From Prochlorococcus sp. MIT 1314 (lineage in GTDB: Bacteria; Cyanobacteriota; Cyanobacteriia; PCC-6307; Cyanobiaceae): DNA of 64,000 nt. The DNA is taken from positions 372,001-436,000 of the forward strand of contig NZ_CP139300.1 in assembly GCF_034093315.1 (NCBI RefSeq), written 5' to 3'. Under the pieces are notes generated by a model that was given only the letters and a program-made list of their open reading frames with translations, did no database searches and was not told the origin of the DNA. Made by a program: the position numbers and the translations under genes. The first letter of the stretch is position 1. The number at the start of each line of letters is the position of its first letter. This document shows, piece after piece, positions 2,956-8,585 of the stretch.

Positions 2956-3032
2956 CGCGGGGTAGAGCAGTCTGGTAGCTCGTCGGGCTCATAACCCGAA
3001 GGTCGGAAGTTCAAATCTCCCCCCCGCCACCA
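2956..3032 (+). tRNA. Initiator tRNA-fMet (CAT)
   Basis: 77 nt with encoded CCA. Initiator features are the three G-C pairs at the base of the anticodon stem (TCGGG/CCCGA around CTCATAA), and an unpaired first position (C1 opposite C72) in CGCGGGG/CCCCGCC. The T stem GGAAG/CTCCC has one A-C mismatch, unusual for an essential tRNA. The 3' half is the attachment site of the following island and recurs at 8540-8585. Confidence 0.96.
2988..3032 (+). repeat. Attachment site inside the tRNA (attL)
   Basis: Begins at CTCATAACCCGAAGG in the anticodon loop and runs to the CCA end. It matches 8540-8585 except in the C-run before GCCACCA. This copy completes the functional tRNA. Confidence 0.9.
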
Positions 3033-3040
3033 ATGAGAAG

Positions 3041-3061
3041 CCCGTCATAGACGGGTTTTTT
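3041..3061 (+). terminator. Rho-independent terminator after the tRNA
   Basis: Perfect 6-bp stem CCCGTC/GACGGG with a 3-base loop, followed directly by TTTTTT. It ends the tRNA transcript and would have been brought in with the island, because the ancestral tRNA terminator should now sit after the second att copy near 8589. Confidence 0.88.
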
Positions 3062-3154
3062 ATTGCCTGAATGTACTCAAGGATATGACTAGGGTGCTAA
3101 TAAGGGTACTGAAGAGACATGAGAGACACCAAAAACCCTTTAAAAGACACCCAA

Positions 3155-3178
3155 ATGTCAACTTTCATGTCAACTTTC
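3155..3178 (+). repeat. Tandem 12-mer ATGTCAACTTTC x2
   Basis: Two perfect tandem copies of ATGTCAACTTTC, 122 bp after the tRNA. The same octamer ATGTCAAC recurs near the other end of the island. Nearby 3110-3150 also has AGAGACAT / AGAGACACC / AAAGACACCC steps. Repeated short motifs flanking an att core are typical of arm-type binding sites for a tyrosine recombinase; that role is inferred. Confidence 0.8.
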
Positions 3179-3190
3179 TTTCATGTGTTC

Positions 3191-3616
3191 TTAGTTAATA
3201 AGAATTGTTTGAGATCCATCTTTATTATCTGTTACGGTTATTTTTTTATTGGGAAATGACTTAGATAATAATCTTTTCAAATTTTTATTTTTGTTTGAGA
3301 TTATATATTGATTTTCTTTGGCATTAGCTTTCTCTATCTTGATCAGTTGCGTCTTCTTCAAAAAAGCAATCCTCTCATCTTCTTTAGCTTTCTCTATAGC
3401 TAACCTATCTTCTTCTGCAACTACATCATCATTAGAATTGTTTTCAATCAAAAATTTTTTTTGGTCTTTCAAAAGTAATTCGACCAATTCTTTTTTTGTT
3501 TTACGACTATATAAGTGAATTGATAATTTTTTTGCTTCTAGACGTATTTCTCTGAAGCTTAGTTTAAGTAACTTATCTTTTATGTTTTCATCATTATCAA
3601 GGAGATTATTAATCAT
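3191..3616 (-). CDS. Small protein with Rho-N/SAP-like helical domain
   Basis: 141 residues. Residues ~15-50 (LSFREIRLEAKKLSIHLYSRKTKKELVELLL in outline: LSFREIR...SRKTKKELVELL) have the pattern of Rho N-terminal/SAP-type helix-extended-helix domains, which often bind nucleic acid. A charged coiled middle and a short C-terminal beta-like tail follow. It is the first gene of the island on the minus strand. Function unknown; a DNA- or RNA-binding role is inferred only from the fold pattern. Confidence 0.6.
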   Translation of the reverse strand: MINNLLDNDENIKDKLLKLSFREIRLEAKKLSIHLYSRKTKKELVELLLKDQKKFLIENNSNDDVVAEEDRLAIEKAKEDERIAFLKKTQLIKIEKANAKENQYIISNKNKNLKRLLSKSFPNKKITVTDNKDGSQTILIN

Positions 3617-3785
3617 TAATTTTAAAAACTGCTAAAGAAGATAGTATGAATATCCTCGATAATGCAATGTATTAATTACTTATTAATAATTAAAAGTCGA
3701 TATATTCTTACTAAATCAAACCAATTCCTGATATAGATGATTTAATAGACGAAAAGGAAAATAAGTTTAATGATGGTTGGTGGTA

Positions 3786-3968
3786 ATGAGTACTAAATGG
3801 AATGACAAATCCTGGCAGAAAGACTTTTTGAATATGAAGTCACATTCTCCTGCTGATGCAAAGCTACTAATGGGAGGTGTAAAAGGATTAAAAGATGCTT
3901 GGCGTTTAGGTGTTCTTCATGTTGAATACGAAAGACTAAAGAAGATACAAGAGCAGCAACAACAATGA
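3786..3968 (+). CDS. 60-residue orphan protein (island)
   Basis: Not recognised. MSTKWNDKSWQKDFL start, then a soluble, charged helix-rich sequence ending in a glutamine run. ATG at 3786 is preceded by GGTGG at a usable distance; upstream TTG/GTG codons are less likely. Its stop overlaps the next ATG (ATGA), so the two are translationally coupled. Confidence 0.65.
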   Translation: MSTKWNDKSWQKDFLNMKSHSPADAKLLMGGVKGLKDAWRLGVLHVEYERLKKIQEQQQQ

Positions 3969-4129
3969 AAGAAGAAATAGATTGGAAAAAAGAATTACTA
4001 GAGAGCGGAAAGTTCAATAATCAATTTTCAAAAAATATATTAGAAACTGGAGCAAAGAATTATATGCAGGAAATTTATATGGGATATATGTATTCCAGAT
4101 GGAGAAAAATTAGAGGTCTAACTAAATAA
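3965..4129 (+). CDS. 54-residue orphan protein (island)
   Basis: Not recognised. Starts MKEEIDWKKELLESGKF and has a tyrosine/methionine-rich helix near the end (NYMQEIYMGYMYSRW). The ATG overlaps the stop of the preceding small gene in ATGA, which supports a real two-gene unit. Bidirectional terminator follows at 4337. Confidence 0.6.
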   Translation: MKEEIDWKKELLESGKFNNQFSKNILETGAKNYMQEIYMGYMYSRWRKIRGLTK

Positions 4130-4195
4130 CAAATACCAAAATACAGACAGCTATGTTTAAGAGCAAGCTAATGGTTTTAGAATTAATTCTCATAA

Positions 4196-4285
4196 TTATC
4201 TAGCTTTAGTAAGCTTAATTTCTCTCTTAATAAGTAATGCTATAACAACAACACACATGTTCATTAGAAATACGTCTAATGGCAT
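4196..4285 (-). CDS. 29-residue one-helix membrane peptide (candidate)
   Basis: MPLDVFLMNMCVVVIALLIK then a short basic tail (REIKLTKAR): one predicted membrane span with a positive inside end. No clear ribosome site. Similar tiny membrane peptides are common in Prochlorococcus, including one at 7225-7317 in the same island. The rest of 4130-4336 shows nothing else I can support. Confidence 0.35.
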   Translation of the reverse strand: MPLDVFLMNMCVVVIALLIKREIKLTKAR

Positions 4286-4336
4286 TTAATAAAAAAAGTC
4301 TCTAATCAATTAATAGCAATGATATTGATGTGCCAA

Positions 4337-4370
4337 TAAAAAAAGAGGGTTTAACCAACCCCCCTTTTTA
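4337..4370. terminator. Bidirectional terminator
   Basis: A-run, AGAGGGTT, short loop, AACCCCCC, T-run: an imperfect hairpin with poly-U on both strands. It lies between the plus gene ending 4129 and the minus gene ending 4393, as expected for convergent genes. Confidence 0.75.
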
Positions 4371-4392
4371 GATCATAATTAAGCAAGAAAAT

Positions 4393-4557
4393 TTAGGAAT
4401 CTAATAATTCCATTTCTTTTTGAGCTTGCCTGATTCTTTCTTCAAAGACGGATCTCTTGTATGGAGTAACTTCTCCATTTTTAGTTGCCAAAAGCTGGGC
4501 TTGATGAAGCCTATTGGCTTTGTTGATTTTGTCTCTTATTTGTAAGAGGTTATTCAT
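4393..4557 (-). CDS. 54-residue orphan protein (island)
   Basis: Starts MNNLLQIRDKINKANRLHQ and ends in a charged helix (RIRQAQKEMELLDS). Soluble and probably coiled; not recognised. Intact frame with a convergent terminator just downstream. Confidence 0.55.
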   Translation of the reverse strand: MNNLLQIRDKINKANRLHQAQLLATKNGEVTPYKRSVFEERIRQAQKEMELLDS

Positions 4558-4712
4558 GGTCTTATGCAGTTAATGAGAATCCCGTTCCCTATTCCCATGT
4601 CATGCGTCCAGTTATATAAATATTGGATGAACGTAAATAAAAAATAACATTCAATAATTATTATTGCGAGAGTAATTCTTACTAAATTTCCATACTCTTT
4701 AAAAAACAAAAC

Positions 4713-7823: not shown

Positions 7824-7949
7824 TTATCCATCTAACCTATCTGCGTAATCTCTTAAAACTTCAGCAATCTTTTGAGGTGGAATTTCTTCTTGATATTCTC
7901 TACATAAATCAAAAAATTTATCTAAGAAATCTTTCATTGAAGAGGACAT
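7824..7949 (-). CDS. 41-residue acidic helical protein (island)
   Basis: MSSSMKDFLDKFFDLCREYQ and ending IAEVLRDYADRLDG: amphipathic, soluble, strongly acidic. Not recognised; coding potential looks good for its size. Region 7702-7823 shows nothing else. Confidence 0.5.
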   Translation of the reverse strand: MSSSMKDFLDKFFDLCREYQEEIPPQKIAEVLRDYADRLDG

Positions 7950-7956
7950 TAAAAAA

Positions 7957-7971
7957 GGAGCTATTTGCTCC
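7957..7971 (-). terminator. Small terminator of the decayed gene
   Basis: GGAGC/GCTCC with a five-base loop and TTTTTT on the minus strand, just beyond the minus pseudogene ending at 8004. Confidence 0.65.
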
Positions 7972-7976
7972 CTAGT

Positions 7977-7995
7977 TTAGATCGACTGTCAATCA
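7977..7995. repeat. 19-bp 3'-UTR repeat, copy 2
   Basis: TTAGATCGACTGTCAATCA; 18/19 identical to 7413-7431 and placed in the same way relative to a terminator. Confidence 0.8.
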
Positions 7996-8003
7996 ATAAA
8001 AGG

Positions 8004-8141
8004 CTACATCATCTCGTAGCTATCAAATTTAGTTTTTAACTTTGCTGCTTTATGCAAAAGACCAACAGCTTCTTTTCTTCCTGTAGCTTGTTGCGCTTGG
8101 AGCGTTAAATCAGCATATTTTTATTCGATTTTCTTTTGCAT
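8004..8141 (-). pseudogene. Nonsense-interrupted paralog of the 41186 gene
   Basis: Reads MQKKIE, stop, KYADLTLQAQQATGRKEAVG, LLHKAAKLKTKFDSYEMM. The part after the stop aligns with the intact 44-residue protein at 41186-41320 (shared ATGRKE.VGLL.KAAKLK). The TAA sits where the intact copy has a Lys codon. So the island copy is probably dead, unless a non-standard start downstream rescues it. Confidence 0.75.
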
Positions 8142-8252
8142 TGTTAAATTAAATAGAGACCGTTTTTGACTCTCGCTAGCATCAAGGAATACTTGCAGAG
8201 GATAAGGAATCAACGGTAAAACCTCAGAGTCAAGAATTTGGAACGGGTTAAC
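8121..8252 (-). pseudogene. Protein-like open fragment without a start
   Basis: A 43-codon frame between stops reads like real protein (QILDSEVLPLIPYPLQVFLD, then ASESQKRSLFNLT) but has no normal start codon. It runs into the MQKKIE stop of the decayed gene. Probably the tail of a truncated gene; not recognised. Confidence 0.4.
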
Positions 8253-8343
8253 TCATGTATTAAATTTATAATCAATTAGCTTAACACCTCTTTGTATCTA
8301 CGATTACATTCTTATAGTTACTGATTTATCTCTTTTATTGGTC

Positions 8344-8354
8344 AGCCCGACGAG
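8344..8354 (-). repeat. 11-nt inverted copy of the tRNA D/anticodon arm
   Basis: AGCCCGACGAG is the exact reverse complement of the CTCGTCGGGCT segment of the initiator tRNA (2979-2989). It is ~190 bp before the second att copy. May be chance or scar of an earlier event. Confidence 0.5.
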
Positions 8355-8358
8355 TAAA

Positions 8359-8388
8359 TATTGGTAAATAAATTATTGGTAAATAAAT
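8359..8388 (+). repeat. Perfect 15-bp tandem duplication
   Basis: TATTGGTAAATAAAT twice with no gap. AT-rich and outside any supported gene; no function visible. 8254-8420 otherwise holds nothing I can support. Confidence 0.85.
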
Positions 8389-8421
8389 TGATAATTCTTA
8401 TGTCATCAAAATTAGAAATTC

Positions 8422-8476
8422 ATGTCAACCTTAAAGTGAGACTCAATAAGTTGACATAGATTAAATAGATGTCAAC
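8422..8476. repeat. ATGTCAAC octamers near the distal att site
   Basis: ATGTCAAC at 8422-8429 and 8469-8476 and the inverted GTTGACAT at 8450-8457. The same octamer is tandemly repeated at 3155-3178 by the proximal att site. Probable arm-type recombinase sites (inferred). Confidence 0.7.
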
Positions 8477-8539
8477 TCCTATATCAACAAGGTATACAGT
8501 CTCATTGCTACCAGTGGATCCATGCCAAATACCTTTGGC

Positions 8540-8585
8540 CTCATAACCCGAAGGTCGGAAGTTCAAATCTCCCCTCCCGCCACCA
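8540..8585 (+). repeat. Distal attachment site (partial tRNA-fMet)
   Basis: 46 bp, from CTCATAACCCGAAGG to GCCACCA, same orientation as the tRNA. It differs from 2988-3032 by one substitution and a one-base insertion in the C-run. No 5' half precedes it, so it is not a tRNA gene but the displaced 3' end. Confidence 0.9.

Follow-up and report, generated by a model that had tools for sequence, protein, structure and literature searches.

Introduction

Prochlorococcus is described as relying on tycheposons, without canonical gene-transfer mechanisms (PMC10654061), and PMC2784084 notes that its genomes have long been reported without identifiable prophages. These reports raise the question of how genomic islands move in this genus. 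Here we analyze an island of about 5.5 kb at the initiator tRNA gene (tRNA-fMet) of Prochlorococcus sp. MIT 1314. It lies in a 64,000-nucleotide (nt) stretch of contig NZ_CP139300.1 (positions 372,001 to 436,000, forward strand), which we call the window. The island carries no recombinase gene and still shows recent movement between species. The presence of the same shortened island in a second species suggests that it remains mobile with the machinery of other elements.

Tycheposons are given as 4-200 kb in size, with tRNA-Met among seven tRNA sites (PMC10872708); we take their traits from papers that cite them. Like them, the window element is a tRNA-bounded element of Prochlorococcus, integrated at a tRNA whose 3′ end is repeated. 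A tyrosine recombinase of its own, a further tycheposon trait, is absent from this copy and present in relatives at the same site. The window copy also differs in that no nutrient cargo was recognised in it.

The cis-mobilizable element (CIME) is defined in PMC5704250, and the term is applied to islands without integration modules in PMC3146451. Judging from its sequence, the window copy would work most like a CIME: its integration genes appear to be lost, its left and right attachment sites (attL and attR) appear to be kept, and elements of this kind seem to accrete in tandem at one site. In those texts, however, the CIME concept derives from elements that are conjugative or mobilizable, whereas the helpers here may be tycheposon-like elements or temperate phages. 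Mobility from cis sites alone, with the enzyme of another element, is likewise described for miniature inverted-repeat transposable elements (MITEs) and clusters of attC sites lacking integrases (CALINs) in PMC11389934. Unlike these, which use transposon ends or attC, the window has the core and arm sites of a tyrosine recombinase beside a tRNA.

Cyanophage P-SS2 has a putative attachment site that matches tRNA-Met at the hypervariable ansA locus, and islands of MED4 and MIT9515 are reported at the same ansA/tRNA-Met locus (PMC2784084). This is also the locus of the window element. We found 46 nt of P-SS2 DNA that match the tRNA core at 96-98%. P-SS2 differs in being a 107-kb virion-forming phage, and its integrase is ∼25% identical over 74% of P0002, a recombinase from the tRNA-fMet site. 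A further likeness is the integrase cluster158946 (PMC10187409), a divergent tyrosine integrase beside tRNAs in Prochlorococcus islands that standard profiles miss. It is reported there at tRNA-Phe and tRNA-Cys, not at tRNA-fMet, and the likeness is drawn from its description.

The end sites of the island predict which recombinase could move it, so that helper dependence becomes directly testable. The common architecture of these sites ties the islands to temperate phages. As a by-product, the same architecture was found on viral contigs and in an apparent prophage at tRNA-fMet.

Insertion at the initiator tRNA

We compared the window with 266 genomes of the genus, its own included, many of which are incomplete. 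G and L numbers below are labels for genomes and for loci or contigs, respectively. The boundaries of the island are the following.

2956-3032, forward strand: tRNA-fMet gene and attachment site (ARAGORN: tRNA-Met(CAT)); positions 2985-3032, in its 3′ part, form the left core copy
3039-3061, forward strand: terminator-like hairpin with T run, supplied by the element, from sequence; much the same sequence lies behind the tRNA in G114, G020, G182 and G032
8537-8585, forward strand: right core, a 3′ copy of tRNA-fMet (49 nt, 96% identity, direct orientation)
8590-8614, forward strand: terminator-like hairpin of the chromosomal flank, which restarts at 8586, from sequence and empty sites

Three G-C pairs in the anticodon stem mark an initiator tRNA, and three are read in the stem of the gene at 2956-3032. 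Chance is far too small to explain a 48-nt match at 96% between the tRNA 3′ half and its copy. By the usual scheme, the right core would be the former chromosomal end of the tRNA. The hairpin and T run after this copy are unlike the hairpin after the tRNA. Between the cores are ∼5.5 kb with small open reading frames (ORFs), a MarR-like gene, a few phage-family matches, a riboswitch and a 48-nt repeat pair.

The original prediction, made from the letters of the window, had a 45-nt repeat at 8540-8585; the direct repeat of the initiator tRNA 3′ half is real and slightly longer (8537-8585). Two differing terminators after the two copies were borne out (∼3039-3061 and 8590-8614), as were small genes, gene decay and repeats between them, in the form of small ORFs, one interrupted gene and the 48-nt pair. 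It had seen no tyrosine recombinase inside the element, and tblastn with the enzymes of three relatives found none. Its two expectations for other genomes, empty tRNA-fMet sites at the predicted junction and related elements with a recombinase at the same site, were both confirmed, as described next.

At 40 of 57 related loci, tRNA-fMet is joined directly (gap of at most 12 nt) to the flank that begins at 8586 in the window. Therefore, 3033-8585 is an insertion. Three further loci have a small flank deletion at the empty site (gaps of -14 to -26), in four the tRNA-fMet gene and the flank lie 355 to 5382 nt apart, and at ten the flank was not seen in the DNA examined. Seven loci were first scored as filled, three of which proved to be the flank deletions at empty sites. 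The 57 loci are not a random sample: 30 are the best-listed matches in the genus, and the rest were picked for assembly quality or a recombinase.

Across the genus, a tRNA-fMet match was found in 206 of the 266 genomes and a second, partial 3′ copy in 18, the window's included. The latter count excludes G079, which has two full inverted tRNAs on one contig, and in G035 and G040 it rests on 20-23-nt pieces at contig ends.

Recombinase of the related elements

In eight of the related elements examined first, an ORF of 448-451 amino acids (aa) starts 150-301 nt behind the tRNA. R254, K287, R394, H421 and Y430 (P0001 numbering) are invariant in 21 members; we take these to be the tyrosine-recombinase residues. 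The family has YxxR where HxxR is usual. The AlphaFold model of the G114 enzyme (mean predicted local distance difference test score, pLDDT, 83.8) has strands at 26-30, 36-41 and 47-55 followed by a helix at 59-72, the N-terminal layout of arm-binding domains. Its top matches in the PDB are protelomerase TelA, XerA, lambda Int and Tn1549 Int. For the top 15 fold matches, E-values run from 7.7e-5 to 9.5e-4 and query TM-scores are only 0.26-0.38. The ∼449-aa enzyme of the relatives is a divergent tyrosine recombinase, with fold matches at low TM-scores.

Sequence profiles gave no link from the recombinase to solved structures; the fold search linked them. PF00589 detected none of the fMet recombinases across 21 genomes. 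When three of the recombinases were scanned, the sole Pfam PF00589 match was for P0002, below cut-off, and P0002 alone gave a match in PHROGs, a weak one.

A tblastn search of the genus gave strong matches (E below 1e-12) in 16 of the 266 genomes, some of these matches being fragments or broken; any match, weak ones included, occurs in 222. Fourteen of the 16 strong matches adjoin tRNA-fMet. The other two, in G055 and G105, adjoin another tRNA-Met: the fragments (L079 and L080, respectively) lie directly 5′ of that different tRNA. Two PF00589 matches were found in the window's whole genome, both elsewhere (320- and 389-aa frames). The 320-aa protein was considered as a helper and set aside, the surrounding 16-kb stretch containing no tRNA.

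Probable loss of the recombinase gene

Window positions 3034-3186 are 88% identical to the left end of the G114 element, in which the recombinase gene comes next. In the window this homology ends at a junction.

3186-3190, no strand: junction at which the G114 left-end homology stops and the recombinase segment is missing, from sequence comparison; identical junction in G020

Beyond it, 3188-3725 is 95% identical to a deeper part of the G116 element, and 3796-4345 is 93% identical to the G114 DNA past the recombinase gene. By these alignments the window element is mosaic and internally deleted, while its left end has remained intact. The homology to G114 and G116 suggests that an internal deletion removed the recombinase gene.

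Ten elements have both ends on one contig (the window and G155, G222, G196, G235, G063, G041, G123, G106 and G054). The recombinase is missing in eight of them, and three of these eight retain arm-type sites at both ends: the window, G222 and G054, each with a different motif type (B, A and D, respectively).

Arm-type sites at both ends

Both ends of the window element retain their cores together with predicted arm-type sites of the kind found in G114.

3155-3174, forward strand: left arm-type sites, with ATGTCAAC repeated in direct orientation at a 12-nt spacing (3155-3162 and 3167-3174); G114 has the same motif at nearly the same position beside its recombinase
8422-8488: right arm-type sites at 8422-8429 (forward), 8450-8457 (reverse), 8469-8476 (forward) and 8481-8488 (forward), the last reading ATATCAAC

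ATGTCAAC occurs seven times in the 64 kb against 1.2 expected, and five of the seven lie at the two element ends. The arm motif tracks the recombinase clade, with similar distances across clades.

Clade A: GTGTAACA
Clade B: ATGTCAAC (G114 and the window)
Clade C: AAGTACA and variants
Clade D: AAGGGGA
Clade E: ATGATAAC

L103, L105 and L107 have further motifs, repeated at 12-13 nt, the first 114-123 nt behind the tRNA. Among 24 left ends scanned, 15 have a clade-typical motif, eight have none and one has a lone, chance-like match. In 12 of the 15 the motif occurs twice, at a spacing of 11-12 nt, and the first copy starts 117-127 nt after the tRNA. At least two motif copies are present at 15 of 16 right ends; in 12 of these 16, two copies in direct orientation are spaced by 12 nt and lie at matching distances.

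Left and right arm motifs co-vary. The longest string common to the two ends of one element averages 11.1 nt, against 6.9 nt for foreign ends (0 of 20,000 permutations, 31 pairs), and 24 of the 31 own pairs share at least 8 nt. For this test 42 pairs were cut to 31 by similarity, and five without left arms were retained. We found no prior account of arm-site types at tRNA-fMet in the open-access literature searched.

The same shortened form in a second genome

The tRNA-fMet of G020, a species representative, is followed by the same integrase-less junction as that of the window. A full-length junction match was found in none of the other 264 genomes, many of them incomplete. The two copies share 3,206 nt of element at 94.9% identity, compared with 88.5% in the upstream flank. 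In 120-nt windows, identity is 0.87-1.00 in the element and 0.81-0.95 in the flank. The 46 nt just before the tRNA have 40 matches.

Synonymous divergence (dS) between the two genomes, pooled over eight element genes, is 0.131 (44 of 365 synonymous sites). It is 0.529 in four upstream genes (156.3/412) and 0.542 in four downstream genes (238.8/619; for element versus flank, a Fisher test on rounded counts gives p 1e-22). For single genes, the element values (0.032-0.220) lie entirely below those of the flanks (0.352-0.774; rank test p 1.6e-4). One upstream gene overlaps its neighbour, and p is 3.1e-4 without it. Compared with G114, dS is 0.571 in four shared element genes and 0.644 in the flank, so the element genes are not intrinsically slow. 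Against G116 it is 0.368 in three shared element genes and 0.618 in the flank. The low dS of the element relative to its flanks, together with the shared junction, means that the shortened form spread after the deletion. As far as dS allows, the integrase-less form has moved between lineages after enzyme loss. As to the route, the recombinase of another element would fit the retained sites and the sharp boundary.

Stacked elements and viral contigs

In G076, a tandem junction reads B-type right arms, core, B-type left arms; in G144 it reads A-type right arms, core, B-type left arms. Each has one ATGTCAAC copy left behind the core. These junctions show that elements stack at tRNA-fMet, and a tandem arrangement is described as letting a cis-mobilizable element travel (PMC5704250).

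We scanned IMG/VR for the tRNA core and obtained 31 contigs, 30 of which lack the tRNA 5′ half. In 19 of the 31 a recombinase-like ORF lies 127-326 nt behind the core start, and blastp identified all 19 as relatives of the fMet enzymes. Ten of the 12 remaining contigs have little DNA behind the core. Where both sides are present, the arms share at least 8 nt in 16 of 19 non-redundant viral contigs. These core contigs look like attachment sites (attP) that belong to temperate phages or to elements that were packaged. A natural catalogue of recombinase arm specificity is formed by the viral contigs L119-L147 and L149, whose tRNA-fMet cores mostly lie between matched arms of many types.

L093 and L122 are parts of one contig, IMGVR_UViG_2716884731_000001, of 42,221 nt, ∼25 kb of which was read. 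L122, one of the 30 contigs without the tRNA 5′ half, has D-type right arms, then a 3′ copy of tRNA-fMet, and then a flank weakly like that of the window. The contig has an fMet-type recombinase, terminase, portal and capsid-protease genes recognised by eye, and ligase, exonuclease and methyltransferase matches in PHROGs. It is an apparent prophage, probably of a Prochlorococcus host. L042 (G054), an element of 3.2 kb without an integrase, has D-type arms on either side and a phage ligase end (by eye); it is possibly a shrunken prophage of this kind.

A viral source of a B-type helper was also sought. In IMG/VR, 73 stretches have two ATGTCAAC copies 12 nt apart; none has a core within 250 nt, and we attribute them to chance.

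L106 (MED638 metagenome-assembled genome (MAG), titled Flavobacteriales) has an fMet core between arms of the same type and a related recombinase. L108 (SAT94 MAG, titled Euryarchaeota, 39.6-kb contig) has the same features and a tail-fibre protein. Both look like free phage genomes misplaced in bins. L045, a C-type element in G035, has capsid-protease-like and helicase/primase-like proteins (by eye) beside its recombinase, and is possibly satellite- or prophage-derived.

Proposed origin and movement of the island

We consider it probable that the island is an integrase-deleted, CIME-like tycheposon, mobilised by the recombinase of another element and partly decayed. The original prediction had left the choice between mobilisation in trans and decay. 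Both parts stand in sharper form: the enzyme appears to have been lost with an internal segment, the arm sites were kept, and the shorter form is shared with G020. The ancestor would have encoded a divergent ∼449-aa tyrosine recombinase beside the tRNA, as in G114. Recombination between the island attP and the tRNA-fMet 3′ half would have given the tRNA gene a new 3′ end and terminator from the element; the empty sites document this insertion step, and the relatives indicate the enzyme class. A deletion inside the element, starting right after the left arm sites, would then have taken out the recombinase gene, and both cores and both sets of G114-type arms would have stayed put, where they are seen today. 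As far as dS allows, the integrase-less form later passed between lineages. Most likely its ends would have been acted on by an element of the same recombinase type that was co-resident or lay in tandem with it, as proposed for CIMEs. More broadly, and tentatively, with more doubt than belief, tRNA-fMet may be a dock common to temperate phages and islands, at which interchangeable arm-site types set entry and integrase-less elements parasitise carriers of a matching recombinase, so spreading between species.

Several observations weigh against the CIME-like tycheposon. The movement is read from comparison of sequences. The shortened form was found in only one other genome, and the integrase-less junction of G222, examined as a second candidate for sharing, was found in no other. 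Cargo-block replacement by recombination would leave the same picture as an internal deletion, and cargo blocks do travel singly: the Rho_N-like ORF has a dS of 0.059 against G116 and matches at other loci. As for the arms, 22% of mismatched end pairs also share at least 8 nt. Much of the rest would suit a dead remnant, stuck since the recombinase was lost, whose G020 copy arose by homologous recombination or generalised transduction. Left arms are also gone in five of the eight contiguous integrase-less elements. The G020 copy is decayed, with no 3′ tRNA copy and one left arm copy deleted; its contig continues, via a 174-nt end overlap at 99.4%, into the flank without right arms. In the window element the gene at 8004-8141 is interrupted. 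By tblastn, no strong match to the helper recombinase was found in the window's genome (best 6.3e-8) or in G020 (1.1e-7). As the 77-nt tRNA does not differ between the two genomes, a breakpoint of homologous exchange could lie within it. A homologous tract, however, should usually spill into the flanks, and here the identity is 40/46 just before the tRNA and flank dS is 0.53-0.54. The window also retains both arm sets and both core copies. We regard the remnant as unlikely, though not greatly so.

It is distinctly unlikely that the island is instead what is left of a temperate cyanophage at tRNA-fMet, a prophage shortened by internal deletion. Viral contigs and the apparent prophage at this site do have the recombinase family and the arm architecture, the 3.2-kb G054 element has that prophage's arm type and an L093-like ligase end (by eye), and the MarR gene and small ORFs of the window match phage families. 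However, no structural, packaging or replication gene was recognised among the 12 window ORFs covered by the family scans. The IMG/VR search turned up no viral contig with B-type arms at the core, a result that also counts against a viral helper for the CIME-like tycheposon. That the region is long-standing core genome, in which the tRNA fragment arose by chance or duplication, has practically no probability left: the empty sites at 40 of 57 loci rule it out, and the mosaic, recombinase-bearing relatives also speak against it.

Cargo of the island

The features between the two ends are the following.

3191-3616, reverse strand: 141-aa ORF with a weak, Rho_N-like Pfam match that stays under the cut-off
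3777-3968, forward strand: 63-aa ORF, phrog_16908/phrog_869-like
3965-4129, forward strand: 54-aa ORF, same phrog families as the preceding ORF
4393-4557, reverse strand: 54-aa ORF, phrog_545-like, downstream of the riboswitch
4573-4636, reverse strand: glutamine-II riboswitch aptamer (44.4 bits, gathering score 33)
4713-4901, reverse strand: ORF read as 62 aa, found again in other same-site elements
5656-6057, forward strand: 133-aa MarR-like regulator, phrog_9665
6057-6239, forward strand: 60-aa ORF that comes after the MarR gene in several relatives
6246-6443, forward strand: 65-aa ORF common to G032, G144 and core-adjoining sequence in L122
6443-6640, forward strand: 65-aa ORF common to G006 and G020
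8004-8141, reverse strand: 45-codon gene with a stop at codon 7 in the window, open in 12 of 13 other listed elements

The putative cargo comprises a MarR regulator, which is under purifying selection, along with small genes of phage families and a riboswitch paired with a peptide gene. The 12 window ORFs scanned gave no recognisable relaxase or conjugation gene. Against eight relatives, the MarR gene has a ratio of nonsynonymous to synonymous divergence (dN/dS) of 0.05-0.08, so it was kept functional somewhere in its history. For the gene at 8004-8141, the G235 reading is the only one of the 13 other listed elements with a stop.

The glutamine-II riboswitch lies directly upstream of the 54-aa phrog_545-like ORF (4393-4636), on a mobile element. 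The 3′ end of the Rho_N-like ORF (3188-3284; G000:C1:845183-845276) recurs at other places in many genomes of the genus, starting near the stop codon, and is like a movable cargo block. The repeat pair at 7388-7435 and 7952-7999 consists of 48-nt, terminator-like sequences that are 75% identical and have matches in several other same-site elements. They may resemble a 48-bp island repeat reported in Prochlorococcus.

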